Origin: Maribacter sp. MJ134
Lineage (GTDB): Bacteria > Bacteroidota > Bacteroidia > Flavobacteriales > Flavobacteriaceae
Length of the DNA: 64,000 nt
Assembly: GCF_003970695.1 (NCBI RefSeq)
Contig: NZ_CP034570.1
Location: 1,240,001-1,304,000, forward strand
Direction: 5' to 3'
Shown here one piece after another: positions 18,947 to 41,526 of the stretch. The translations under genes and the position numbers were made by a program. The notes below the pieces were generated by a model, which was not told the origin of the DNA, did no database searches, and worked only from the letters and a program-made list of their open reading frames with translations. Positions within the stretch are counted from its first letter, which is position 1, and every line of letters begins with the position of its first letter.

Positions 18947-20743
18947 CTACTTTTTTTGGACACTTTTTAGGTAAGTGTTTGGTGTTGTGCCTTCTATTTT
19001 TTTAAAAAACGTATTAAATACGGTTTTAGAATTAAAACCACTATCGTATGCCACAGCCATTATGGTTAATCCTTTGTTTTCTTCTAGAAGAACGCGCTCT
19101 TTAAATTCGTTAACCCTAAAGGTATTGATATACTCAGAGAAGTTTTTTTGAAACCCCAAGTTTAATAATTGCGAGACATAATTGGCAGGAAGTTCCAAGT
19201 AAGAAGCTAAATCTTTTAAGGATAGGTCTGGATTTAAATACAGTTTGTAGTCTATCATTATTTGCTCTAGTTCCTTGCAGTACTTTTTGATTTCGTTGGA
19301 ATCTAGTAAAGCCTGTTTATACTTCTTTTTCTGTTTATAATTTAAATTATCTGGAATGGCTTTTAGCATGATGTCTTTAAACCTTTTGTGATTTTTAACA
19401 GGTTTAAGAATTGGTGATGGATTAAGTAATAAAATTACGGGCAAACGATTATTGTATGCTTGAGTTATTAAATCAATTACCTTTTCGTTATTACCTAACA
19501 AGGCATTTACTAATATCAAAAACGTAAATGCCTTATCTACAAGATCAGTATTTAAATACGTCTCTAATTCTTTTAATCCATCATTACACTTTTCCGTTTC
19601 ATTGAGTTTTGCATAGCACATGGTTTCACCTCCTAATTTGGTGAGGTCTTTCACAGAAACTCCTTCAAGTGAACCGAAATATGTCAAAGCTTCATTTGGT
19701 TTGCCTGACATCAATAAACAAATCCCTATATAAATTGGTGGAAAGGGTAACTTAGGGTCTAAATCTAATGCCTTTTTTAGATAAGGTATCGCAGTTTTAT
19801 AATCTTCCTTCAAGTAGTATAAAAAACCCTTGTAATGATGATTTATAGCGGCATAAGGATCTAACTGTAAGGCTTTGTCAAGATAATTACTTGCCGCATC
19901 TAATTTTCCTTCTACGGTCAAAAAATTAGAAATGGTTAAGTAAATATCGTCTGCTTGTTGCATCTCCAAAGCCTTATTGGCATGTTCGTAAGCTTTCTTA
20001 AGATTCCAGTTTTGCCAGCATTCTATCCAAGCCAAATTCAATTGTGACCTTGATGAGTTTGGGTCTAGCTCTAATGCCTTTAACAAATAAGGTTGGGCCT
20101 TCTCGTATGCTTCAAATGCGGGCAAAAGCCCCATAGTTCCCATATTAACATAGGCTAGATTTATATCTAAATAGGGATTTGAAAAATTGGGTGATTTATG
20201 TATTACTTCTTTTAAGATATTGATACCCTTTATAGAGTTTTTATAATCTAGTTTCATGATGTAGTACCTTCCTTTCAAATATTCTCTATAAATAGCTACA
20301 GGTACATCAATAGCTTCTACTAGCTTATCTTCGATTTCGAGATGCCCTATGTGTTCGCGTAATTTTTCAGCGATAAACAGACTAATTTCATCTTGAATTT
20401 CAAAAATATTTTCAGGATTTCTATCAAAAGTTTCTGACCAGAAATGAAAGTCATCCAAAGCATCTATCATTTGCACAGTAATGCGCATTTTATTTTTGGA
20501 TGTCCTTACACTGCCTTCTATAAATGTAGCTACCTTTAGTTTTTCCCTTATTTCTTTAGAGGTTGCTTTTTTGTTTTTAAAATAGAAGGAAGAAGTACGA
20601 GAGGTCACTAATAATACCTTTATAGATGCTAAGGCGTTAATTATTTCTTCGGTTAAGCCATCGCAGAAATATTCATTGTTAATATCATTACTCAAATTAA
20701 CAAATGGCAAGACAGCTATTGATTTCTTATCGATTACAGGCAT
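18947..20743 (-). CDS. TPR protein with C-terminal AraC-type HTH
   Basis: The 598-residue protein starts with a TolB/FlgO-like module (SIAVLPFVNLSNDINNEYF, residues 8-26, then FIEGSVR). TPR repeats fill about residues 150-420, with helices such as AIPYLKKALDLDP and SNYLDKALQLDP. It ends in an AraC-type HTH domain (about 490-595: LSLKDLASYLELPANYVSQLL, then MAVAYDSGFNSKTVFNTFFKK). No transmembrane span is seen, so it is cytoplasmic. The other AraC/TPR protein of this island (38490-40541) has the reverse order and a membrane span. It is a candidate activator for arrays A-C. The ligand is unknown. Confidence 0.88.
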   Translation of the reverse strand: MPVIDKKSIAVLPFVNLSNDINNEYFCDGLTEEIINALASIKVLLVTSRTSSFYFKNKKATSKEIREKLKVATFIEGSVRTSKNKMRITVQMIDALDDFHFWSETFDRNPENIFEIQDEISLFIAEKLREHIGHLEIEDKLVEAIDVPVAIYREYLKGRYYIMKLDYKNSIKGINILKEVIHKSPNFSNPYLDINLAYVNMGTMGLLPAFEAYEKAQPYLLKALELDPNSSRSQLNLAWIECWQNWNLKKAYEHANKALEMQQADDIYLTISNFLTVEGKLDAASNYLDKALQLDPYAAINHHYKGFLYYLKEDYKTAIPYLKKALDLDPKLPFPPIYIGICLLMSGKPNEALTYFGSLEGVSVKDLTKLGGETMCYAKLNETEKCNDGLKELETYLNTDLVDKAFTFLILVNALLGNNEKVIDLITQAYNNRLPVILLLNPSPILKPVKNHKRFKDIMLKAIPDNLNYKQKKKYKQALLDSNEIKKYCKELEQIMIDYKLYLNPDLSLKDLASYLELPANYVSQLLNLGFQKNFSEYINTFRVNEFKERVLLEENKGLTIMAVAYDSGFNSKTVFNTFFKKIEGTTPNTYLKSVQKK

Positions 20744-24178: not shown

Positions 24179-24901
24179 TTATAAGCTATTCCAGTTTTTA
24201 AACTTAACAGACTGTCGGCTTGAAACTTCAATCTTTTCACCAGAAATCAAGATGATGTGTAGCTTATTATTAAAATGCGGGTGAATTTCTTTAATAAAAT
24301 GTGTGTTGATAATTTGACTCCTATTGGCTCTAAAAAACACGGTGGTATCTAACTTTTTTTCAAGTAGATTTAATGAACGTTTGATCATAGCCTTTTTACC
24401 ACCAAAGTATAGGCGCGCATAATTATCCATCGATTCAATATAGTAGATATCAGAAATTGGAATGAAATAACATTTTTCGCCGTCTTTAATAAAAATCTTT
24501 TTATGCATGGGCAAAACATCTTGTGACACCTTTGCCTTCTCTGCCAACTCCTGTTTTACTTTTTCTATGGTTTTTGCAAAGCGTTCTTCCCGTAAAGGTT
24601 TAACCAAATAGTCCAATGCGTTTAATTCGAAAGCTTTTACAGCGTATTGGTCATACGCAGTTGTAAAAACAACTTCTGGAACGGTGGTTAATTCTTCTAA
24701 TAAATCAAATCCTGACTTTTCAGGCATGTGTATGTCCAAAAACAATAGGTCTGGATCTTCGTCCGCTACTAATTTTATAGCCGCATCCACATTGTTTGCC
24801 TCTCCAACCACGATAAATTCCGGATATTTTTTTAAAGCACGTTTTACCTCTTCTCGCGCTAAACGTTCATCATCGATAATAACCGCTTTATATGTTTTCA
24901 T
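24179..24901 (-). CDS. LytTR-type response regulator
   Basis: This 240-residue regulator has a receiver domain (Asp10-11, phosphoacceptor Asp56 in LLFLDIHMPE, Lys in DYLVKPL) and a C-terminal LytTR DNA-binding domain (about 135-238). The LytTR part shows ISDIYYIESMDNYARLYF and FFRANRSQIINTHFI. It is activated by the sensor encoded directly upstream, with which it overlaps by 14 bp. LytTR domains bind direct repeats about 20 bp apart. The targets are not known, but the adjacent ABC exporter operon is a good candidate. Confidence 0.95.
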   Translation of the reverse strand: MKTYKAVIIDDERLAREEVKRALKKYPEFIVVGEANNVDAAIKLVADEDPDLLFLDIHMPEKSGFDLLEELTTVPEVVFTTAYDQYAVKAFELNALDYLVKPLREERFAKTIEKVKQELAEKAKVSQDVLPMHKKIFIKDGEKCYFIPISDIYYIESMDNYARLYFGGKKAMIKRSLNLLEKKLDTTVFFRANRSQIINTHFIKEIHPHFNNKLHIILISGEKIEVSSRQSVKFKNWNSL

Positions 24902-25979
24902 CTGCTCTGTAGGGTACTAGTATAGTCGCTTGTACTATATTATTAGCTATTTCTTCTAAAGTAAAAGAAGCCTCTTTATTATATTGAAGCTCCAAGCGCT
25001 TCTTTAAGTTCATTAAACCTAAACCATTTGCAGATTTAGTATCATTTAATTTTCCTGGATTTTGAACTTGTATATAGACTTGATCTCCGTTCTTATCAAT
25101 TTTCAAAGTTATTAACCCACCTTCAATAACTTTGTCAATTCCGTGTTTAATGGCATTTTCTATCAATAATTGGATGCTCAAGGTTGGAATTTTAAAATGG
25201 GCTAACGTCTTATCAAGAGTGATGTCTATTTCCAATCGTTCTTCAAAACGAAGTTTTTCCAACTCTATGTAATCATTTACTAAAGCTAATTCGTTTTTTA
25301 CTGAAATTAAGTCTTTATCTTTTTCATATAAAGAGGAACGTAATAAGTCGGACAATAAGTCTATCCCACGTCTGGCTACATTAGGGTTCTCAACAATTAA
25401 GGACTTTATGGAATTCAAGGAATTAAATAAAAAATGTGGGTTTAGTTGAGCCGATAAATTATCTAATTGTGCTTGTTTCGCCACTAAGGAAAGTTGAGCA
25501 TATTCTCTTGCCGTTACAACTTCTTTTTGATAATAATGATACAGATGATACGCTAAAATCCAGATAGACATTAACCGTAAACCGGTAAGTAATATGGGAT
25601 CCCAATAAAGAAGCGATACCCATATATTCTTATCTTCTTCCGCTATCAAGGTCCAATAGCCATACCACTTCAAATTGTTTAAAAGCACATATAAAAAAGC
25701 CAATAAAAGTATACTGGGAATTACACGAACAAGCAGCTTTTTAATGGGTAATTGACTCCAATTTGCCTTTAAAGCATATGTTCTGTACATGTGGGTCAGG
25801 AAAATTCCAATGGCAACATCTAAAACATAATTACAGAAAGTGTAAAACACCCCATAGTCATCTCTTGTGTATACCGTGTATGCCCAATAAACAGAAACAG
25901 TACACCATCCTAGTAATTGGCACTTCCAATAAAGGGCGTTTGTTCTATTACTTTTGAGTGTTTTTGTACTGATATTCAT
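24888..25979 (-). CDS. LytS-type sensor histidine kinase
   Basis: The 363-residue kinase has four hydrophobic spans in the first 150 residues. A dimerisation helix with the His182 motif QLNPHFLFNSLNS (His_kinase domain) follows, and then an HATPase region with LLIENAIKHGID and NGLGLMNLKKRLE. The short sensor part has no extracellular domain, so it probably senses the membrane or works with a partner such as the ABC exporter upstream. It overlaps the LytTR gene by 14 bp and forms a two-gene signalling unit with it. Confidence 0.95.
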   Translation of the reverse strand: MNISTKTLKSNRTNALYWKCQLLGWCTVSVYWAYTVYTRDDYGVFYTFCNYVLDVAIGIFLTHMYRTYALKANWSQLPIKKLLVRVIPSILLLAFLYVLLNNLKWYGYWTLIAEEDKNIWVSLLYWDPILLTGLRLMSIWILAYHLYHYYQKEVVTAREYAQLSLVAKQAQLDNLSAQLNPHFLFNSLNSIKSLIVENPNVARRGIDLLSDLLRSSLYEKDKDLISVKNELALVNDYIELEKLRFEERLEIDITLDKTLAHFKIPTLSIQLLIENAIKHGIDKVIEGGLITLKIDKNGDQVYIQVQNPGKLNDTKSANGLGLMNLKKRLELQYNKEASFTLEEIANNIVQATILVPYRADENI

Positions 25980-30693: not shown

Positions 30694-31485
30694 ATGAAGT
30701 TGAAAATATCAGATAGAAAAAAGAAAATTATAAACAGGGTTTATAAGATATCCCTTGTAATTATAGGTTTAGTCATTGTAATCTTTAATGACACTTTTGG
30801 TAAATTAGAAGGGTTTGCTGAGTTTGTTGTATTGTACTTTATTCTCTTAATCATTACAATTGCCCACTGGGTTTTTAAACAGATCAAATCAATTATTCGA
30901 TTAAAGAATGAAAAAGAAAAAACAGAATTACTGCATTTAAAAAGTCAGGTAAACCCACATTTCTTCTTCAATACACTCAACAATTTGTATGGATTAATGG
31001 AAAAAGATTCTAAGGAAAGGGAAATGGTACTTAAACTTTCTGATATGATGCGATATAGTATTTATGAGGGCCAAAAAGATCGGGTTAGCCTCAAACAAGA
31101 ATTAGATTACTTAAAAAACTATATTGAACTTCAAGGAATACGCTATCATAAAAAGTCTGATGTTCAATTTAATTCTGAAATTGAGCATCCGCAAGTTAAA
31201 ATTATGCCTTTACTATTTATTATTCTAGTAGAGAATGCGTTTAAGCATGGCTTGGAAAATTTAGAAAAAGACGCGTATATCCATATTAATTTAACCGAAA
31301 AGGATAATAACGTAAACTTCACAATTGAAAATAATTTTGAATTACAACAAACACCCAATACAGAAGGTATTGGTTTAAAAAACTTAAAGAGAAGATTAGA
31401 GCTAGTTTACTCCAATAAGCATTCTCTTTCTTTTGACGTAACCGCCAATAGTTATAAAGTTAAACTATCTCTAAAATTAAAATAA
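30694..31485 (+). CDS. LytS-type sensor histidine kinase, short form
   Basis: The 263-residue kinase has two hydrophobic spans in the first 62 residues, a His89 motif (QVNPHFFFNTLNN) and an HATPase region with ILVENAFKHGLE and EGIGLKNLKRRLE. It has no sensor domain beyond the two spans. Its last codon overlaps the start of the LytTR gene (TAATG), so translation is coupled. It is transcribed away from the ABC exporter and shares its upstream region, which fits a role in sensing exporter state or its substrate. Confidence 0.94.
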   Translation: MKLKISDRKKKIINRVYKISLVIIGLVIVIFNDTFGKLEGFAEFVVLYFILLIITIAHWVFKQIKSIIRLKNEKEKTELLHLKSQVNPHFFFNTLNNLYGLMEKDSKEREMVLKLSDMMRYSIYEGQKDRVSLKQELDYLKNYIELQGIRYHKKSDVQFNSEIEHPQVKIMPLLFIILVENAFKHGLENLEKDAYIHINLTEKDNNVNFTIENNFELQQTPNTEGIGLKNLKRRLELVYSNKHSLSFDVTANSYKVKLSLKLK

Positions 31486-32183
31486 TGAGATATCTAATCA
31501 TAGATGATGAACATATAGCCCACAAGATTATCATGGAATATTGTGAAATGCTTCCGCATATGAAGTTGCAGAAAAACTGTTATAGCGCTTTGGAAGCGCT
31601 TGAGTATTTGAATACACATCAAGTTGACTTAATCTTTTTAGATATAAATATGCCCAAATTAAAAGGATTTGAATTTTTAAGAACCTTATCATCACCTCCT
31701 AAAGTTATTGTCACGACAGCCTATAGTGAATTCGCAATTGAAGGCTACGAATTAAACGTTGTAGATTACCTGTTAAAACCTTTTAGTTTAGAACGTTTTT
31801 TGAGTGCTATTAATAAAGTAACGTCTTCGACCATTAGTACAATAAGTATGGCAAGGCAGCAGAATATAAAGCCTGAAGGACAACATATTTTTTTAAAGCA
31901 AAATAATAGTCATGTTCAGTTAGCTATAGATTCCATACTATTTATTGAAGCTTCTGGCAACTATACCAAAGTTGTTACTACTGATGGCATCATCAGCATT
32001 CGAGAAAAAATATCGGATACGATACAATTATTTTCAGACAATGATTTTCTTCAAGTTCATAAGTCTTTTGCCGTTGCAAAAAAGCATATACGTAGTGTAG
32101 AAGGCAACAGAATTTACATTGGAGATCATATTGTGCCTATTGGTAAACTGTATAAAACAAATATCATTCAATTATTGAAATAA
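31485..32183 (+). CDS. LytTR-type response regulator
   Basis: The 232-residue regulator has a receiver domain with phosphoacceptor Asp53 (LIFLDINMPK) and Lys in DYLLKPF, and a C-terminal LytTR domain (about 135-230: IDSILFIEASGNYTKVV and FLQVHKSFAVAKKHI). It pairs with the short kinase immediately upstream. It is the second LytTR regulator around the ABC exporter. The two pairs differ clearly in sequence, so they are not a recent duplication. Confidence 0.94.
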   Translation: MRYLIIDDEHIAHKIIMEYCEMLPHMKLQKNCYSALEALEYLNTHQVDLIFLDINMPKLKGFEFLRTLSSPPKVIVTTAYSEFAIEGYELNVVDYLLKPFSLERFLSAINKVTSSTISTISMARQQNIKPEGQHIFLKQNNSHVQLAIDSILFIEASGNYTKVVTTDGIISIREKISDTIQLFSDNDFLQVHKSFAVAKKHIRSVEGNRIYIGDHIVPIGKLYKTNIIQLLK

Positions 32184-33168: not shown

Positions 33169-33199
33169 AAATGATTTGATTTTAATTTTAAGGTATTGG

Positions 33200-34243
33200 T
33201 TACTTTCTGCTTTTCAGGATTTTTACAATTCTATTATTAATTTTTTCTGATACGTTCCAAGAGTATCCGCCACTAGTATTTACAAATTGAACAACCACAG
33301 CATCAATATCCTTGTGATACTTGGCAATACTGCTGTAACCTGGTAATAATCCTGTATGTTCATATACATAGATTGATGTATAAATAGCTTGTTCCTTATC
33401 ATTTAGCAAGGAGCCGTCGTTCAACGCCCTCAAGAATATACCCACATCCTGTGCTGTAGCCACCATGGAGCCGGCAGGGCTTACAAAATCATTGGGCTTT
33501 AGGTCTGGCTCATAGTCTACGGCATATCCGCTCATAACATCGTCTAAATTCACTTCACTTAGCAAACTGTAGGTATCGTTGAGCCCAAGGGGCATTAAAA
33601 CTTCCTTTTTGATAAATTGGTGATGACTGTATCCCAATGTTTTATCCAAGATTTCGCCAATCAACAGATAATTGGTATTTGAGTACCTATATTTTTTATC
33701 CGGTTTAAAATCGGCAGGAGTATCGAGGACCAAATCGAGCGATTCTTTAGTGTTTTTAGAATAATCGTTTACCCAAAAACCTGGAAAGTCCGTGTAGTTC
33801 GGAATACCAGACCGATGTTGCACCATCATTCTCAAGGTGATTTTATCGGCATTTTCAATTCGTCCCACCAGTTCCGGCATATAATCAGCGAGCGTTTTGT
33901 CTAAAGACAACTGATTGTCATTAACTAATTTTGCTACGGCAACAGCAACATACAACTTGCTAATGCTGGCAATCCGGAATAAAGCTTTTGGGTTGGCAGG
34001 AATCTTATTTTTTCGATCCTGCCAGCCAGCGGCATAAAACTCAGGTGGCTTTCCAGCTTGGTCTACATAAACAATCATGCCGTCCAAACCGTATCCAATG
34101 GCATCATTGACCTGTTCCTGAACCGTATCTGGTAATGGTGTTAACAGTAATCTTAGCAAAATCCATGGCACAAAGAATAGTGAGCTGATGCTTGCCATAA
34201 TTAATATGATTTTGAGTATTCGTTTTGATTGTTTCTTTGCCAT
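33200..34243 (-). CDS. Class C beta-lactamase-type serine hydrolase
   Basis: The 347-residue protein has an N-terminal membrane anchor (about residues 10-33) and a penicillin-binding fold. The active-site Ser-Ile-Ser-Lys is at 93-96, the Tyr-Ser-Asn motif in KYRYSNTNY and HTGLLPG late in the chain in place of KTG. Such proteins are often peptidases or esterases rather than true beta-lactamases. It faces the periplasm. It lies 31 bp upstream of the DUF4386-like gene and 39 bp after the CPBP gene, so the three are one operon. Confidence 0.9.
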   Translation of the reverse strand: MAKKQSKRILKIILIMASISSLFFVPWILLRLLLTPLPDTVQEQVNDAIGYGLDGMIVYVDQAGKPPEFYAAGWQDRKNKIPANPKALFRIASISKLYVAVAVAKLVNDNQLSLDKTLADYMPELVGRIENADKITLRMMVQHRSGIPNYTDFPGFWVNDYSKNTKESLDLVLDTPADFKPDKKYRYSNTNYLLIGEILDKTLGYSHHQFIKKEVLMPLGLNDTYSLLSEVNLDDVMSGYAVDYEPDLKPNDFVSPAGSMVATAQDVGIFLRALNDGSLLNDKEQAIYTSIYVYEHTGLLPGYSSIAKYHKDIDAVVVQFVNTSGGYSWNVSEKINNRIVKILKSRK

Positions 34244-34282
34244 AATACGATTGTTTGTTTTTTCATTTTATTGTCTTAAAAC

Positions 34283-35158
34283 CTAGAGGTTCTCAACTTT
34301 CGCCTTTCGCCAAAAATAGATGGCAAATAGCGTCGTAATAATCGGTAGCATGAGTCCGTATTCATCTATCCAAAAAGTCGTGCAGTTATTTGTTATCGTC
34401 AACGGCGTGAAAATCTTCTGTATGAATATATTGTGTACGGAATGAAATAGGGCCGCAGGCCACAAGCTGTTGGATTTAAAAGTATAGTAGGCCAAAATGA
34501 CCGAAATTGCAACTATCATTACGGTAAAAGCTGTAATGTGTAGCAACAGGTTTCCACTTCCCTTGTATATCAAAAAGATAATTGGCCAATGCCATATCGC
34601 CCAAATCAATCCGCTAATCATGGAAACACCACCAAAGGAAAATAGTTTCCGAAGTTCGTAGTTGAAGAATCCCCGCCATCCTATTTCCTCGCCCAATGTC
34701 GAACCAATGTTCTTTACAACACCAACAATAGATAAGAGAACAATCATAGTCAATAGTATAATTGTACTACTGAAACCTTCCATGCCTAATTCTTGCGACC
34801 ACTCGGTGATAGTTTCCTGATTGAGCACATTTCCAAAACCGAAAACCCAAATCAATACATAGGCAATCATAATATAGGCTACCGGAATCAAATAGGATAG
34901 GCGTAAATTTTTCAAACTTTTCAGACCCCATGGAAGACTTGAAATCGGTCTTTTCAGTAGCTTTAATGTAATAAAGGCGGATAATGCAGGGCTCATCATT
35001 AAAGCCCCGACATAGATGCTTGTAGGGTTCAGCTTGAGTATTGCGTAATAACAGATAGTACTTAGCAGGGTCAAAATACCCAAAAACAACAGTATCGTTT
35101 TCCGGACTTCTTTGGGATGGCTTAATTTTTCCGACATTTTAATATTTTTAAAGAACAC
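34283..35158 (-). CDS. CPBP-family intramembrane metalloprotease
   Basis: The 291-residue protein has eight or so hydrophobic spans and the CPBP motifs: Glu157-Glu158-x3-Arg162 (GEEIGWRGFF) and His190 in IWAIWHWP, with a later His in FHSVHN. The family comprises Rce1/Abi-type membrane proteases, some of which give self-immunity to bacteriocins; the target here is unknown. An ATG at 35137 may be the true start. Confidence 0.9.
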   Translation of the reverse strand: MFFKNIKMSEKLSHPKEVRKTILLFLGILTLLSTICYYAILKLNPTSIYVGALMMSPALSAFITLKLLKRPISSLPWGLKSLKNLRLSYLIPVAYIMIAYVLIWVFGFGNVLNQETITEWSQELGMEGFSSTIILLTMIVLLSIVGVVKNIGSTLGEEIGWRGFFNYELRKLFSFGGVSMISGLIWAIWHWPIIFLIYKGSGNLLLHITAFTVMIVAISVILAYYTFKSNSLWPAALFHSVHNIFIQKIFTPLTITNNCTTFWIDEYGLMLPIITTLFAIYFWRKAKVENL

Positions 35159-35263
35159 TTAATAAACCGAGGCTTGTTACATTTCAACTTTCAAGACTAT
35201 CAAAAAAGTAACATTAAAGTATCTTAAAAAGTGTGACCAATCGTTCGGTTTTTTAAATTGGAA

Positions 35264-36376
35264 CTAATTTGAAGAGTCCTTAATTTTTAGATGATACATT
35301 TTCATGAGCTTTTTTGCTTTATTGGATTTCCATTTAAGTCCAAACAATGGCTTTAAGAATCCAATCCTTTTAATAATAAATTCATAAATGAGATAGCAGG
35401 CTAAACCTGTAAAAGCTACAATACCTACGAATTTCAATAAGATAGGTATTTCCAATGGCAATATGAACATAGCCCCTGCGTACAAAACAAACATGTGTAT
35501 GATATAAACAGGATACGCTGCTTGGCTCAAATAACTCAGGATTTTACTTGGTTTGTTCAAGTACTTATATCCGAGGCCGAAAACGCCGAAAATCCAACAA
35601 TTGGATTCGATAGCCGTAAGATAACCGGGTGCTTCCGTCGCGTAATTAAAATATCTTATGCCGAACAGCACGGCGGCCAAACCAATATATAACCAGCGCC
35701 ATTTTAAAACGGTCTGCCAGAATGTTTTACCACTGTACACGAAAAGAAAGCCGAAAAAGAAGGCCAAAAATCCAATAAAAAAGCCATGCCAAGTCTCCGC
35801 ATATAGGGCGAATAGCTGGGGTTTTACCAGTAATGCTTCAAGCACAAAAAATATAGAAATCGACAAAGGCCCAACAGGATTACCCATGAATTTGGACAAG
35901 CCGTTTTTAAATCTTCCATTCTCGTTCTTTTTCAGATAGAAAAATAAGGGCAGTAACAGCAGGACGTATGCAAAAATATTCCCTAGAAACCATAAATGCC
36001 CTACATGCGGATAATAGCCCAACGGCATATCATAATACGTCTGAAAAATATACATGTGTAAGGTGGTTATGGCTATAAAGCCAAAGACGAAGGGTAAAAG
36101 AATACGCTTTGTCCGTTCCAGAAGCAATTGTTTCCAGTTTCTCTTGCGCATGGCAAAATAGAGCCCCATTCCCGAGACGTAGAACAAAAGTGGAATCCGC
36201 CAGACGTTTAACATGGTCATTGGTTTCCATAAACCTTCTAGAAATTCATCGCTTCTGATAAAGCCAATGAACATGGCCCAAGGTTGAAATACAATGGCGA
36301 TGTGATAAATGAGCAGCAAGCCAATGGCAATAACCCTTAACCAATCAATATCATATCTTCTTTCAGTTTTCATCAT
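35264..36376 (-). CDS. Acyltransferase family 3 membrane protein
   Basis: The 370-residue protein has about ten hydrophobic spans and the start YDIDWLRVIAIGLLLIYHIAIV, which carries the Arg and His expected in acyltransferase-3 (OatA/NodX/OpgC-type) proteins. VWRIPLLFYVSGMGLYFAMRKR fits the second conserved segment. It probably transfers an acyl group to an envelope glycan. It starts 18 bp after the ankyrin lipoprotein gene and shares its transcript. Confidence 0.88.
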   Translation of the reverse strand: MMKTERRYDIDWLRVIAIGLLLIYHIAIVFQPWAMFIGFIRSDEFLEGLWKPMTMLNVWRIPLLFYVSGMGLYFAMRKRNWKQLLLERTKRILLPFVFGFIAITTLHMYIFQTYYDMPLGYYPHVGHLWFLGNIFAYVLLLLPLFFYLKKNENGRFKNGLSKFMGNPVGPLSISIFFVLEALLVKPQLFALYAETWHGFFIGFLAFFFGFLFVYSGKTFWQTVLKWRWLYIGLAAVLFGIRYFNYATEAPGYLTAIESNCWIFGVFGLGYKYLNKPSKILSYLSQAAYPVYIIHMFVLYAGAMFILPLEIPILLKFVGIVAFTGLACYLIYEFIIKRIGFLKPLFGLKWKSNKAKKLMKMYHLKIKDSSN

Positions 36377-36394
36377 GTTTAATTTTAAAATCGA

Positions 36395-36997
36395 TTATTG
36401 CAACATCATTGCTATGACCGGGCGGGTTTTTTCGATTTCGGTCAACTCAATTTGTAAACCTATCGGCCCTAATTGCTGCTGTAGCATTTCATAAATGGGT
36501 TTTATTTCTGCAAATGGCCCCATAACACTTTCCCTTGGTGTCATACCAAAGTTGTTTTTAGCGGTCTTATCGGCTTTGGCATCAATAAGTGACTGTACGA
36601 CTTCGACTCTACAAAAGAATGCGGCCGTATGCAAAGCTGTTGCACCATCGTTATTTTTAGCCGATAAATCCGCACCGGCATCAATAAGGGCTTGCGCAAT
36701 TTTATGCTTTCCAAAGCTCGCGGCAGTGATTAGTGGTGTGGCCCCGGTCATAGGGTCTTTTTTGTTCAAATCTGTTCCTGCCGAAATATGCTGTTTAACG
36801 GCTTCAAGATTGTCCGATAGTATCGCTGTTTGAATATCCATTTCTGGTGCATCAACTACCGACTTGGTTTCGGTACTGGTGGTTACTTCGGTTTTTGATT
36901 TACTGCTTGTTTGACCACATGCGGTCGTAAGTAAAAGAAGGCCTAATGACATGTATCCCAAGGTTCTTAATGTGTTAATTCTAAATGGTTTATTCAT
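36395..36997 (-). CDS. Ankyrin-repeat lipoprotein
   Basis: From the ATG at 36997 the protein has 200 residues with a lipoprotein signal ending in Leu-Thr-Thr-Ala-Cys. A Ser/Thr-rich linker and four ankyrin repeats follow (such as GATPLITAASFGKHKIAQALIDAGADLS and the next, ending near residue 165). A longer frame from 37045 adds 16 residues encoded by the repeated leader cassette and would spoil the signal peptide, so the shorter start is preferred. Ankyrin repeats bind protein partners; here probably in the periplasm. Confidence 0.85.
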   Translation of the reverse strand: MNKPFRINTLRTLGYMSLGLLLLTTACGQTSSKSKTEVTTSTETKSVVDAPEMDIQTAILSDNLEAVKQHISAGTDLNKKDPMTGATPLITAASFGKHKIAQALIDAGADLSAKNNDGATALHTAAFFCRVEVVQSLIDAKADKTAKNNFGMTPRESVMGPFAEIKPIYEMLQQQLGPIGLQIELTEIEKTRPVIAMMLQ

Positions 36998-37058
36998 GAT
37001 TATGTTATTTAATTTTAATAGGTATTCGTGAATCTTTGATTTCATGATTATATTTTTT
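36995..37058 (-). repeat. Leader cassette copy 1
   Basis: This is one of three near-identical leader segments (others at 37791-37853 and 38051-38120). Each ends, on the minus strand, at the ATG of a gene. The shared core of about 42 bp includes GTTATTTAATTTT and AGGTATTCGTGAATCTT. In copies 1 and 2 it contains an upstream ATG in frame with the gene. Confidence 0.8.
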
Positions 37059-37081
37059 TGATTATTGCTATTATTTTTTCT

Positions 37082-37178
37082 TTAGTAAACGACCTCGGGG
37101 CAAGCCCGCAATGCATTCGTAGGAAACGGACTTTTAATTTCGAGGCAAGCCTTGGGATATTATACCCTTTGGCGGTGC
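37082..37178. repeat. 97-bp dispersed repeat, copy 1
   Basis: It aligns without gaps over 97 bp with 41430-41526 at about 80 per cent identity by hand count. Shared blocks include GGCAAGCCC, GCATTCGT, AATTTCGAGGCA and GGCGGTGC. It lies between the barrel and ankyrin genes. It looks like a small intergenic repeat element with short inverted segments. Confidence 0.8.
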
Positions 37179-37184
37179 AAATGA

Positions 37185-37793
37185 TTAAAACCAGCTAAAG
37201 CCAATTCCTAAACTAAATTGCACCACCTCTCTGTCATTATTATTATCTAGCTTTACACCACCCAGGAGTAATTTGGATTGGACGTTTAAGGCAAATTTGT
37301 TTTTTCTGTACACTTCGTAACCCGTGCTCGCCATAACAGCTAAACCCGTATTCCAATCTTCATTTATGTTATCTTCAATATCATATAATGCAGGGCCATC
37401 TATGGCTAAACCGGCACCACCATGTATCCACCACCGGTCTTTTACCCAGTACTGAACAGAAGGTATAATGCCTCCAAAGTGCCTGTCGTTATCATTAAGC
37501 GTGTAAATCATTCCAGGTGCAGAAACGGTAACGGCTAAACGGTTGTTCAGCATATAGCCAAACTTTAATTCAGGAAAAGTGCCACCGCCTTGGGTATCAT
37601 CAAAACTTTGGGTTCCAGCACTATCTTCTATACTGATTATACCGCCACCTAGACCAAATTCGAAGATAAAACCATCTCGGTTAAAGCTGTTTTGAGTGTT
37701 AGAAATGTTTTGTGCAAATGCTAGTGCAGATATTAAAGTAAAGGCAGCACACGCCACTTTTAACTTAGCTTGTTTTTTGATTGTTTTACTCAT
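37185..37793 (-). CDS. Outer-membrane beta-barrel protein, paralogue 2
   Basis: From the ATG at 37793 the protein has 202 residues with a signal peptide ending in Leu-Ala-Phe-Ala-Gln. It is strand-rich and ends in Gly-Ile-Gly-Phe-Ser-Trp-Phe. It is homologous over its full length to the product of 11710-12330 (shared NDRHFGG, YWVKDRWWIHGG, ALYDI, NFALNVQSKL-like). The longer frame from 37841 includes the leader cassette and is unlikely. It follows the two micro-ORFs behind array C. The cargo is unknown. Confidence 0.87.
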   Translation of the reverse strand: MSKTIKKQAKLKVACAAFTLISALAFAQNISNTQNSFNRDGFIFEFGLGGGIISIEDSAGTQSFDDTQGGGTFPELKFGYMLNNRLAVTVSAPGMIYTLNDNDRHFGGIIPSVQYWVKDRWWIHGGAGLAIDGPALYDIEDNINEDWNTGLAVMASTGYEVYRKNKFALNVQSKLLLGGVKLDNNNDREVVQFSLGIGFSWF

Positions 37794-37853
37794 GTCTTTG
37801 TTATTTAATTTTAATAGGTATTCGTGAATCTTTGATTTCATAATTACATTTTT
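37791..37853 (-). repeat. Leader cassette copy 2
   Basis: This second copy of the leader cassette ends at the ATG of the barrel gene (37793). It shares the 42-bp core with copies at 36995-37058 and 38051-38120 almost base for base. Confidence 0.8.
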
Positions 37854-37927
37854 AATTATTGTTATAATTTTGTTATGGTAAGGGATAGACTTTGATTAGG
37901 GCCTACCCCTTTTTTCAAACCAACAAA

Positions 37928-38053
37928 CTAGGCTTCTAAATGAAGGTAAGGTCTGGAATGTGACCAACGGATTCTCTTGCTGTCCTCAAAATGGGTAAAG
38001 AAAGTGAACCTTCTAGATTCCGTTGGCGATTGATTGATGCCCGTTTTACTCAT
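37928..38053 (-). CDS. Micro-ORF B, 41 residues, TESR/SKR family
   Basis: The frame from the ATG at 38053 to the TAG at 37930-37928 encodes 41 residues. Over 24 aligned positions without gaps, 11 match micro-ORF A: TESR at 11-14, then F19, F22, SKR at 25-27, W30 and R34. The pattern TESR-x4-F-x2-F-x2-SKR-x2-W-x3-R in two neighbouring frames argues for real coding. It is basic, has no signal peptide or membrane span and carries leader cassette 3. I recognise no family. It could be a small regulator, a signal peptide precursor or an RNA-level duplication. Confidence 0.55.
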   Translation of the reverse strand: MSKTGINQSPTESRRFTFFTHFEDSKRIRWSHSRPYLHLEA

Positions 38054-38120
38054 GGCTTTGTTATTTAATTTTTATAGGTATTCGTGAATCTTCGATTTCA
38101 TGACTGTGTTGTTTTTTGAT
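38051..38120 (-). repeat. Leader cassette copy 3
   Basis: This third leader copy ends at the ATG of micro-ORF B (38053). The upstream in-frame ATG present in copies 1 and 2 is here followed by a TAA after nine codons, so the leader cannot be translated through into the gene. This shows that the downstream ATG is the true start in all three. Confidence 0.75.
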
Positions 38121-38139
38121 TTTTTCATATTGATCGTGA

Positions 38140-38253
38140 TTAGCGGTTAAAGTTTCTGTACTGTGCCCATTGGGTTCTTTTGCTTGCGCTAAAGGATGAG
38201 AAGTACTGTCCTGTTCTTGACTCCGTTGCTGTTCTTGTGATTGATGCTTTCAT
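38140..38253 (-). CDS. Micro-ORF A, 37 residues, TESR/SKR family
   Basis: The frame from the ATG at 38253 to the TAA at 38142-38140 encodes 37 residues with TESR at 10-13, F18, F21, SKR at 24-26, W29 and R33, matching micro-ORF B one residue shifted. It is the first possible gene behind promoter C, with a leader of about 33 nt after the -7 box that contains ATAACGAACA, as in other island leaders. It is basic and soluble. The function is unknown; no family is recognised. Confidence 0.55.
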   Translation of the reverse strand: MKASITRTATESRTGQYFSSFSASKRTQWAQYRNFNR

Positions 38254-38290
38254 AATTATTGTTTTAAATTGTTCGTTATGATTTTTGATG

Positions 38291-38402
38291 TTACAAAGGT
38301 GCTATAGAACTTGCAGCAACCTGTAGGAGCTATGCGCAGAACTATGTAAAGTTTCAGGAGGGCATAAAAATTATGGCGCGGCAATGTAACTTATGACGCA
38401 AA
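38291..38402 (-). promoter_or_regulatory. Operator array C with minus-strand promoter
   Basis: Five units with cores at 38311, 38332, 38353, 38373 and 38393 (steps 21, 21, 20, 20) follow the minus-strand -7-like CACCTTTG opposite 38294-38301. Unit 5 reads ACTTATGACGCAA and unit 4 AAATTATGGCGCG. The third unit is the AAGTTT variant. The layout relative to the promoter is the same as in array B to the base. It lies between the micro-ORF operon and the divergent AraC/TPR regulator, so it could serve both. Confidence 0.7.
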
Positions 38403-38489
38403 AGATGCTTTTTCCTCTAAATCGATGGCCGTTGGCGATAACGCATAATTCTCTATATTTTCCCTAATTTAGAGCCAGCAAAAAACAAC

Positions 38490-40541
38490 ATGTCAAATCC
38501 ATCGGCCAAAAAACCAAACTTTATAGAACAAGCGGAAGCCCTAATTCTGGAAAATTTGGCCAACGAACAATTTGGGGTGTCCGAACTTGCGGAAGCTCTG
38601 CACATGAGCCGATCCAACCTGCTCCGGAAGATCAAGAAACAGACACAGCTTTCTGCAAGCCAGTTTATACGTCAAGTCCGTCTTAAGGAATCAATGAAAC
38701 TGCTAAAGGAAGATTCTTCAACGGTTTCCGAAATTTCATATCAAGTAGGTTTTGGAAGCACTTCCTATTTCATTAAATGCTTTCGAGAACAGTACGGATA
38801 TTCTCCTGGGGAGCTTGGAAAAAGTGATGTAGAAGTTGAAATCGAACAGATTAAACCAAACTATTTGAAACTATACCAATGGCCGATTATTGCTGCAACA
38901 TCCTTAGCACTGATACTTGTAGCCATAATACTGTTCAATAAAAAGGATGCTATAAATGAACCGAAAATTGAAAAATCCATTGCAGTATTGCCCTTTAAGA
39001 ATGAGAGCAGCGATTCCACCAATCTTTATTTTGTAAACGGACTGATGGAATCTGCTTTGAACAACATTCAGAAGATTGAAGACCTGCGGGTCATCAGTAG
39101 AACCTCGGTAGAGAAATATAGAAAAACGGACAAGGGTATTCCAGAGATTGCCGAGGAGCTGCATGTGAACTACTTGGTAGAAGGTAGCGGTCAGCGTGTC
39201 GGTGATCAGGTGTTGCTCAACATACAATTGATCAACGCTTCTACGGACACCCCTATTTGGGTAGAACAGTACAGTCGGGAAGTTGAGGACATTTTTGAAT
39301 TGCAAAACGACGTGGCCAAGAAAATTGCAGATGCCATTGCAGCCGTCGTAACACCGACAGAACTGGAGCAAATTGAAAAAAAACCAACTGAAAACCTATT
39401 GGCCTATGATTACTACCTACAGGCATTGGACCCTTATTATTCTCGCTCAGAAGAAGGCTTGGAAAAGGCCATTTCATTATTCGAAAAAGCTATAGAACAG
39501 GATCCAGAATTTGCCCTCGCCTATGCCAACATCGCTATCTCATACTATCTTCTAGAAATGTCGCAAATAGAGAAACAGTACACCGAAAAGATTAACAGCT
39601 TTGCGGATAAGGCCTTGCTTTACGATTCAAAATCCGCCGAAAGCTTGGTCGCAAAGGCCTTCTACTATATACAAACTAAGGAGTACAAATTAGCCTTACC
39701 ACATCTTAATAAGGCACTGGAGTATAATCCTAATTCATCGTTGGCAGTACAAATGCTTGCGGAATTTTATTCGCATATGCTGCCCAATACTGATAAATAC
39801 CTAGAGTACGCATTAAAAGGGGTTCAGCTAACCGTTGCTAGTGATTCCATTACTCAGAGCTATACGTATTTACAACTAAGTAATGCGCTTGTATCGTCAG
39901 GATTTGCAGATGAAGCTTTAAAATATATTAACAGTTCGTTGGATTATAATGCTGAAAATTTTTATGCTCCACATTTAAAGGCATTTATACTGTTCGCCAA
40001 GGACGGTAATATTGAGCGTACAAGGAATTTGTTGATAAAGGAATGGAAGAAAGATACGACTCGGCTTGATATTTTACAGGACATAGGGAAGTTGTACTAC
40101 ATCGAGGAAAATTATGACAGTGCCTACTTCTATTTTAAAAAATTTGTGGAAACCAGGGAAGCAAATAGTCTGGATATTTATTTACAGGAAAATGTCAAAA
40201 TTGCACTGGTCTATAAAGAGATGGGATTGGACAAGGAAGCTGAGAAACTATTTAATGATTTCTCTGAATATTGCGAAGGAGATCAATCCATTTATAGAAG
40301 TGTGAATCTGGTTTGGAAATACGCTTATGAAGGAAAAATCAATGAGGCTATCGAACAGCTTAGAATATTTTCCGAAACAGAGAATTATCTGTATTGGTTT
40401 TTATTAATCGAAGATGAACCATTGATAAAACCATTAAAGAGCCATCCAGATTTTGAGGAAATTATGCAGAAAATTAAGGATAGATTTTGGAAAAATCAGG
40501 CCGAGTTAAAAATATCTCTGGATGAAGAAGGCTTGCTATAA
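38490..40541 (+). CDS. AraC-HTH / membrane span / TPR regulator
   Basis: The 683-residue protein has an N-terminal AraC-type HTH domain (about residues 16-108: FGVSELAEALHMSRSNLLRKI, then EISYQVGFGSTSYFIKCFREQYGYSP). One membrane span lies at 131-149, a TolB/FlgO-like module begins SIAVLPFKN at 163, and TPR repeats run from about 290 to 660. The HTH is cytoplasmic and the TPR part should be periplasmic, so it can pass an envelope signal directly to DNA. It is divergent from operon C and borders array C. It is the best candidate regulator of arrays A-C, by position only. Confidence 0.92.
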   Translation: MSNPSAKKPNFIEQAEALILENLANEQFGVSELAEALHMSRSNLLRKIKKQTQLSASQFIRQVRLKESMKLLKEDSSTVSEISYQVGFGSTSYFIKCFREQYGYSPGELGKSDVEVEIEQIKPNYLKLYQWPIIAATSLALILVAIILFNKKDAINEPKIEKSIAVLPFKNESSDSTNLYFVNGLMESALNNIQKIEDLRVISRTSVEKYRKTDKGIPEIAEELHVNYLVEGSGQRVGDQVLLNIQLINASTDTPIWVEQYSREVEDIFELQNDVAKKIADAIAAVVTPTELEQIEKKPTENLLAYDYYLQALDPYYSRSEEGLEKAISLFEKAIEQDPEFALAYANIAISYYLLEMSQIEKQYTEKINSFADKALLYDSKSAESLVAKAFYYIQTKEYKLALPHLNKALEYNPNSSLAVQMLAEFYSHMLPNTDKYLEYALKGVQLTVASDSITQSYTYLQLSNALVSSGFADEALKYINSSLDYNAENFYAPHLKAFILFAKDGNIERTRNLLIKEWKKDTTRLDILQDIGKLYYIEENYDSAYFYFKKFVETREANSLDIYLQENVKIALVYKEMGLDKEAEKLFNDFSEYCEGDQSIYRSVNLVWKYAYEGKINEAIEQLRIFSETENYLYWFLLIEDEPLIKPLKSHPDFEEIMQKIKDRFWKNQAELKISLDEEGLL

Positions 40542-40918
40542 TCCGTTAAAAAGCTTAGCTATTAATTCAAGGTTTTCACATAACGTAATTCCAAGTACCG
40601 TTTCATTTTATTCTTATTGTTTTTTATAACTTCCTTTTTCTACAAATTCTATCTTTTATGAAGGTCACCTAGTGTAAGAACAATTTCAATTTATCATTAC
40701 AGATTCTTTTTACCTCTAATCCCTTTTACGCGATAAACCTTTTTCTGGATTCCCCCGCTTACAATGGAATTAAAATTTGAGAATGTTGTTTTGACCGATT
40801 TGTTTACCTCTTAAAAGAATTATCCGGTCAAAAAAGCATTTTTAAGAAAAGACCAAAAGATAAAACCTTTTAAAATCAATTAATTATTAGGTTTTAAATG
40901 TTAAGAAATATTAAAATA

Positions 40919-40943
40919 GAGTTAGCAGGATTCGAACCCCTAT
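40919..40943 (-). other. tRNA T-arm-like fragment
   Basis: On the minus strand the sequence contains GGGGTTCGAATCCTGC, which looks like a tRNA T-arm with part of the 3' acceptor strand. The stem does not pair fully and no other tRNA part is present. It may be the scar of another integration or deletion event at the right end of the island. Confidence 0.35.
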
Positions 40944-41027
40944 CTATTACTAATCTTCTCTTATTTAATATTGTGCACATTACAAATATTATTAGGAAAA
41001 TTTATAGAAGTTCAATATTTTTATAAA

Positions 41028-41059
41028 GTAAACCGTATACGGTAGCGTATACGGTTTAC
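41028..41059 (+). repeat. Right end dyad, perfect 14-bp arms
   Basis: GTAAACCGTATACG and CGTATACGGTTTAC form perfect 14-bp arms around the four bases GTAG. The core GTATACGGTAGCGTAT (41035-41050) is shared with 225-240 at the left end. There is no T run, so it is not a terminator. It lies 76 bp inside the right tRNA repeat. Confidence 0.75.
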
Positions 41060-41134
41060 ACTAATACAGTAAAAATATATTTAATAACTACTTGTTTTTC
41101 AATAGGTTGTAAAACTAAAAAATAGCGGTTAAAG

Positions 41135-41179
41135 TTCATAACCCGGAGGCCGAGGGTTCAAGTCCCTCTCTCGCTACAA
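41135..41179 (+). repeat. attR-like direct repeat of the tRNA-Met 3' end
   Basis: These 45 bp are identical to 118-162. The sequence to the left has no tRNA 5' half, so this is not a gene. It closes the island, and the chromosomal terminator at 41187 follows just behind it. Confidence 0.9.
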
Positions 41180-41429: not shown

Positions 41430-41526
41430 TTAGTAAACTACCACGAGGCAAGCCCACGAGGCATTCGTTGGAAACATATTTTCAATTTCGAGGCATGCCT
41501 AGGGGTATGAAACATTATGGCGGTGC
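41430..41526. repeat. 97-bp dispersed repeat, copy 2
   Basis: It aligns without gaps with 37082-37178 at about 80 per cent identity. This copy is outside the island, on the chromosomal side, so the repeat family is shared between island and host. Confidence 0.8.

Follow-up and report, generated by a model that had tools for sequence, protein, structure and literature searches.

A previously undescribed family of tandem basic micro-proteins in Flavobacteriaceae with candidate stress-responsive promoters

The window, by which we mean the whole 64,000-nt stretch of Maribacter sp. MJ134 DNA analyzed here (contig NZ_CP034570.1, positions 1,240,001 to 1,304,000), carries two micro-ORFs on its minus strand, both lying where an earlier note, made from the letters of the sequence, had placed them. 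Micro-ORF 1 (38140..38253, 37 aa, MKASITRTATESRTGQYFSSFSASKRTQWAQYRNFNR) is of the A type and starts in a context of A-3, A-11 and A-12, and micro-ORF 2 (37928..38053, 41 aa, MSKTGINQSPTESRRFTFFTHFEDSKRIRWSHSRPYLHLEA) is of the terminal B type. The two share TESR-x4-F-x2-F-x2-SKR-x2-W-x3-R, and the 11 identities over 24 ungapped positions, from T to R, that had been counted between them were found again. When one partner was shuffled 20,000 times, this identity was never reached; since a few unrelated pairs among 504 small ORFs of the window also reach 11-13 of 24, the pair by itself is no proof of a family, and the proof comes from relatives.

The -7-like promoter element CACCTTTG (38294..38301, minus strand) precedes both micro-ORFs, in agreement with the claim that they come first behind the promoter. 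It follows the consensus TAHHTTTG, which we took from PMC6847099, with C replacing T, and has the same form in the AraC-TPR loci compared. A direct repeat on the same strand, TGCGTCATA / CGCGCCATA (38372..38400, 20 nt start to start), is kept in 10 aligned AraC-TPR loci and is likely an AraC-type binding site. Divergent from the operon, on the plus strand, lies a 683-aa AraC-HTH/TPR regulator (38490..40541, Pfam HTH_18 at 1.9e-20 and TPR) that presumably controls it. The other operon genes, all on the minus strand, encode a 218-aa protein that is outer-membrane-protein-like by sequence (37185..37841, without a Pfam match, its cluster found in 6 related loci), an ankyrin-repeat protein (36395..37045, Ank_2, 4.4e-17), an acyltransferase_3 membrane protein (35264..36376, PF01757, 3.6e-22), a CAAX protease of the Rce1-like kind (34283..35158, PF02517, 2e-13) and a beta-lactamase-fold serine hydrolase (33200..34243, PF00144, 1.6e-47). 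The operon is 99.4% identical to a Croceitalea dokdonensis locus across 8 kb (33179-41177), so the AraC-TPR version passes between genera.

Micro-ORF 2 has a leader cassette of its own, as had been proposed, one of three copies of a ~103-nt repeat on the minus strand: before micro-ORF 2 (38030..38132), before the outer-membrane-like gene (37770..37872) and before the ankyrin gene (36974..37076). The cassette frame is closed in the first of these (MKSKIHEYL*) and open in the other two, and the DNA is retained in relatives, where the copy before the second micro-ORF reads MKSKIHEYL* or MKSKIHEYF* in four loci (L096, L099, L100 and L104) and the frame is open before the next genes. We considered the cassette as a protein (MKSKIHEYLLKLNN) and ruled this out, as the frame is closed before micro-ORF 2 in those four loci. 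It is likely a transcribed leader element, and the pattern of a broken frame with its DNA kept fits the cassette and not the micro-ORFs.

The micro-ORFs are members of a previously undescribed Flavobacteriaceae family of basic proteins of 24-44 aa. The guess of a small-protein family was right, as relatives were recovered with intact frames under purifying selection: a profile of the two sequences detected them in 34 of 35 genomes of the same genus, as well as in several further genera, with E down to 1e-28 and nearly always in tandem, and the own genome holds a second array of three copies (contig 1,055,874-1,056,298). The 37-aa type is present in 37 of 299 Flavobacteriaceae genomes, and the named loci come from Maribacter, Croceitalea, Pricia, Muriicola, Arenibacter, Ulvibacterium, Zeaxanthinibacter, Croceivirga, Kriegella and others; outside Flavobacteriaceae, neither the 37-aa nor the 28-aa type was found in genomes drawn from the phylum. 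For the collection scan, the profile was narrowed from an over-diverse alignment to the A type, so the 71 named loci are biased to that type.

Arrays are ordered AB, AAB, AAAB or AAAAB: a run of A copies, sometimes just one, closes with a single divergent B copy, which comes last in 67 of the 68 arrays holding both (some loci were fetched twice in these array and copy counts). The near-identical body copies have the consensus MKASxxRTATESRTGQYFSSFxxSKRxQWAQYRNFNR and the divergent last copies MKTFINQSPTESRRF...SKRIRW...YLH. The core array of the genus, which is syntenic, is a third type, MRTFIRNTPTETRRNSFFSSFKNSKRVQWASSRNHTH, joined by a divergent last copy in several genomes. The micro-ORFs themselves form the array, contrary to the expectation that copies would lie close to array-like repeats. 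In L098 (6258) and L117 (5355), hybrid copies begin as A type and end as B type, which points to recombination between neighbours. The same operons often open with another micro-ORF type of ~40 aa (M-x-TL-x-PH-x2-RPKIYF-x-IGFGWNTDR-x-YD), unrelated to the first and with no match in Pfam or NCBIfam, which is found upstream of the first A copy in L113, L116, L146, L157 and L162-L166 and in spacers of L098 and L123. Another gene lies divergent to or beside the arrays in L101, L105, L106, L108, L109, L115, L126, L137 and L148, and also in L124; it occupies at least four different neighbourhoods, and it has relatives in L064 and L072 with a match to the class III nucleotide cyclase domain.

Promoters fall into a few types across the 71 loci. 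The palindrome AGTACY-N12-AGTACT followed by TGTAACA-N15-CGTCT stands before 55 of them, with a constant GTAC-to-GTAAC offset of 22 nt, and 11 have the AraC-type direct repeat seen in the window, with an AraC-TPR gene adjoining in 11 of 11. Two of the other five are cut by contig ends, one has an altered AGTAC-type version and two have LytTR-like sites. The window locus is therefore a minority promoter setting of the family, and the earlier proposal that the micro-ORFs sit at the heart of the regulon holds for the local operon, which they lead in all 11 related AraC-TPR loci, but not for the family, most members of which stand elsewhere behind the ECF-type promoter. In many arrays an early copy is followed by a ~135-nt spacer that holds a second promoter, with ACAATTG-type repeats 21 nt apart and a CATNTTTG element 63 nt downstream of them; the repeats are like AgrA/LytTR direct-repeat sites. 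Such AgrA-like direct repeats, spaced by two helical turns, were counted in 18 of 21 long spacers, where shuffling gave a mean of 0.01. The spacer promoter and the window promoter both have CAHHTTTG in place of TAHHTTTG, a variant that would be expected of activator-dependent promoters. We also looked for a wider AGTAC regulon in the own genome and rejected it, as the array alone matches well and matches with 3 mismatches are near chance level.

In the own genome, TGTAACA-N15-CGTCT is also found upstream of an ECF sigma gene (contig 821,356), whose operon encodes sigma-70 regions 2/4, then a 144-aa protein that is presumably the anti-sigma factor, then a DUF4252 protein. Within the genus, the ECF gene is present in 35 of 36 genomes, and 28 of 30 of its operon loci keep TGTTAAAT...TGTAACAAAA...TCGTCT. 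This self-promoter has the array promoter layout minus the palindrome, with motif and fixed spacing common to both, so control of the arrays by the ECF sigma factor is likely, as inferred from the promoter sequences. ECF sigma / anti-sigma / DUF4252 operons of other Bacteroidota (PG_0214-0216 and PG_0985-0987; PMC10101095) have the same operon architecture as that of Maribacter, and passages of that paper place sigma/HP/DUF4252 operons of Porphyromonas gingivalis among the genes raised under H2O2 conditions. Those passages describe no micro-protein targets, and the link to the arrays is one of promoter similarity only; the arrays would, by this route, be induced by stress.

The AGTAC element reaches further than the 37-aa type. 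A first sample had it in 33 of 75 genomes, all 33 of the own genus, and the larger survey in 82 of 249 Flavobacteriaceae genomes and 79 of 235 genera, usually once or twice per genome and preceding micro-ORFs in the loci examined. Among the genera without the 37-aa type, some have tandem 28-aa ORFs (MRTLNNNQLTGTLQGTKSNQWNTKRRYR) behind the element, often followed by a divergent 44-aa ORF, and others have three to five copies of a 24-aa ORF (MRTTIFKNSKRIRWSEHRNYAIKS); a 30-aa intermediate stands behind it in L307. An hhalign comparison matched the C-terminal ends of the 37- and 28-aa profiles (E 2e-5, probability 77%), and the minimal core common to the types is [ST]K-x3-W-x3-R-[NR]-[YFH].

Comparative data of several kinds bear on coding. 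The ratio of synonymous to other changes, which the earlier note had suggested comparing between copies, indicates purifying selection, with dN/dS of 0.14 for the A type (134 distinct DNA sequences) and 0.17 for the core type (53 sequences), and of 0.37 for the 28-aa type (40 sequences). Third codon positions are the most variable in the A and core types, codons differ at invariant residues, and the spacers between copies are A-rich and not conserved. Frames broken while the DNA is kept, which would have pointed to an RNA or DNA role, were found at about 3 of 345 copy-encoding places in 111 stretches. In Flavobacterium johnsoniae, ribosome profiling has singled out A at -3, -6, -12 and -13 as favouring translation (PMC6847099). 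Of 259 distinct leaders of the family, 81% have A at -3 and 87-93% have it at -11 to -13, as against 26-32% at the same positions before internal Met codons; the first ATG of nearby long ORFs has a weaker A context (50-55%), in a comparison that is noisy because the long-ORF starts are not curated. On this comparative evidence, we show that the family members are protein-coding genes and that every copy starts at a site of its own, in a context that favours translation.

The proteins themselves are basic, with a net charge of about +3 to +7 and a pI of 10-12. Searches of Pfam, NCBIfam, PHROGs, PADLOC and PDB gave no meaningful score for 34 members (best E 0.029, chance level), and the 28-, 44- and 24-aa types and the C type were likewise without a family match; a PDB lead, 3ldu (FENTKRINWSRYIPY, E 0.42), was treated as chance. 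Literature queries on Maribacter small proteins, Flavobacteriaceae smORF families and LytTR-linked small proteins, partly over-long and thus weak evidence, found no paper. AF2 models of A and B have two short helices at low confidence (pLDDT 67 and 61), and Foldseek found no match with them, so the proposal of polyanion binding draws on charge and on the conserved Arg, Lys and Trp. As the neighbours of the arrays are diverse, no partner protein hints at function.

The invariant Lys/Arg/Trp core and the minimal versions of 24-28 residues would fit binding to a polyanion, with RNA or the ribosome as first candidate and the membrane as second. Under envelope or oxidative stress, the ECF factor would transcribe an array as one mRNA, from a promoter gated by a factor that reads the AGTAC palindrome, and in the window array the AraC-TPR regulator would take the ECF factor's role. 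Tandem copies would amplify the dosage of a short basic peptide, whose core, helical in the low-confidence model, would bind a polyanion within the stress response, RNA or the ribosome being the likeliest, and the divergent last copy would be a variant partner. We put the probability that these are dosage-amplified, stress-induced basic micro-proteins acting on RNA, ribosomes or another polyanion at roughly 0.5. The FbpA, FbpB and FbpC proteins of Bacillus subtilis (PMC7430163) are, like the micro-proteins, very small and basic with several paralogs, and are under a stress regulator, Fur; they are suggested to be RNA chaperones, their molecular action being unproven. The Fbp proteins differ in not forming tandem micro-arrays, in answering to Fur instead of ECF-, AraC- or LytTR-type promoters and in belonging to another phylum, and they would be the closest functional analogy we found, by size and charge and by a stress regulation that is presumed for the micro-proteins.

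A more far-reaching version, which we advance tentatively and believe less readily, is a stress effector system across Flavobacteriaceae, in which tandem micro-genes with a common core would stand behind a dedicated palindrome-plus-ECF promoter found almost only before them, with interchangeable ECF, LytTR-like and AraC-TPR wiring and with copy number setting how much is made of a peptide that directly modulates translation or RNA stability under stress. The family is present in many genera of abundant marine bacteria and seems absent from family libraries because its members are only 24-44 residues long. The AGTAC/ECF-type promoter offers a precise means of locating and testing the family and links a conserved, uncharacterised ECF/DUF4252 system to candidate outputs, and the role of tandem micro-proteins could be tested at one small locus per genome.

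As hydrophilic basic peptides, the micro-proteins could equally have a membrane or a protein as target. Action at the envelope, where basic aromatic peptides would attach to anionic lipids or to a protein of the inner membrane and modulate the envelope under stress, agrees with the ECF-type promoter, the two predicted short helices and the envelope functions encoded in the window operon (outer-membrane-like protein, acyltransferase, CAAX protease), but no signal peptide and no hydrophobic or membrane segment is visible in the micro-proteins and GRAVY is -1.0 to -1.7 for most types, so we hold this reading to be the less probable one, though it is the strongest competitor. Type I toxin-antitoxin arrays of the Ldr/Ibs kind also consist of tandem tiny ORFs, with hydrophobic toxins and antisense RNAs. 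Growth-inhibiting peptides of this or a bacteriocin-like sort, amplified in tandem, would be small, basic and variable in copy number as these are; we consider them improbable, since the micro-proteins are hydrophilic and strongly conserved, under purifying selection across many genera, with a core locus that is syntenic genus-wide, spacers that show neither conservation nor an antisense element, no signal peptide and no PADLOC match. Carriage as phage or plasmid cargo was likewise rejected, with no match in IMG/VR, INPHARED or PLSDB.

It is more doubtful still that the products are peptide signals, ligands of the neighbouring TPR regulator as in the RRNPP systems of Gram-positive bacteria: the regulator adjoins the micro-ORFs in every locus of the window type, but most arrays have no TPR regulator alongside, and the peptides have no export signal and a C-terminus that is conserved instead of hypervariable. 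Repression of their own promoter by micro-protein dimers on the AGTAC palindrome would explain why the element occurs once or twice per genome together with micro-ORFs and has no regulator gene regularly adjoining it; AraC-type arrays without the palindrome and the lack of a known DNA-binding fold make this very improbable. A non-coding RNA or DNA role with the frames as by-products has in its favour the regular ~150-250 nt spacing of the tandem repeats, and is hardly credible and was ruled out by dN/dS, codon-position entropy, frame integrity, the unconserved spacers and the start context. Polyanion binding by stress-induced micro-proteins is the reading that we prefer.

Elsewhere in the window, 45 bp of the 3' part of a tRNA-Met gene (86-160) at 118-162 are exactly repeated at 41134-41178, where homology with loci L096 and L100 also stops, and a GTATACGGTAGCGTATACGGTT palindrome lies close to both repeat ends. 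The repeats resemble attachment sites of an integrated element; housekeeping genes, such as one for a tRNA synthetase, lie between them, and none of the ORFs tested was seen to encode an integrase. Another TPR-AraC regulator and two histidine kinase / LytTR response regulator pairs are encoded at 18947-20743, 24179-25979 and 30694-32183. Similar short repeats of the form gaggcaagcc...gcattcgt.ggaaac...tttcaatttcgaggcaagcc are found at 37095-37160 and 41440-41500 and may belong to a dispersed repeat.
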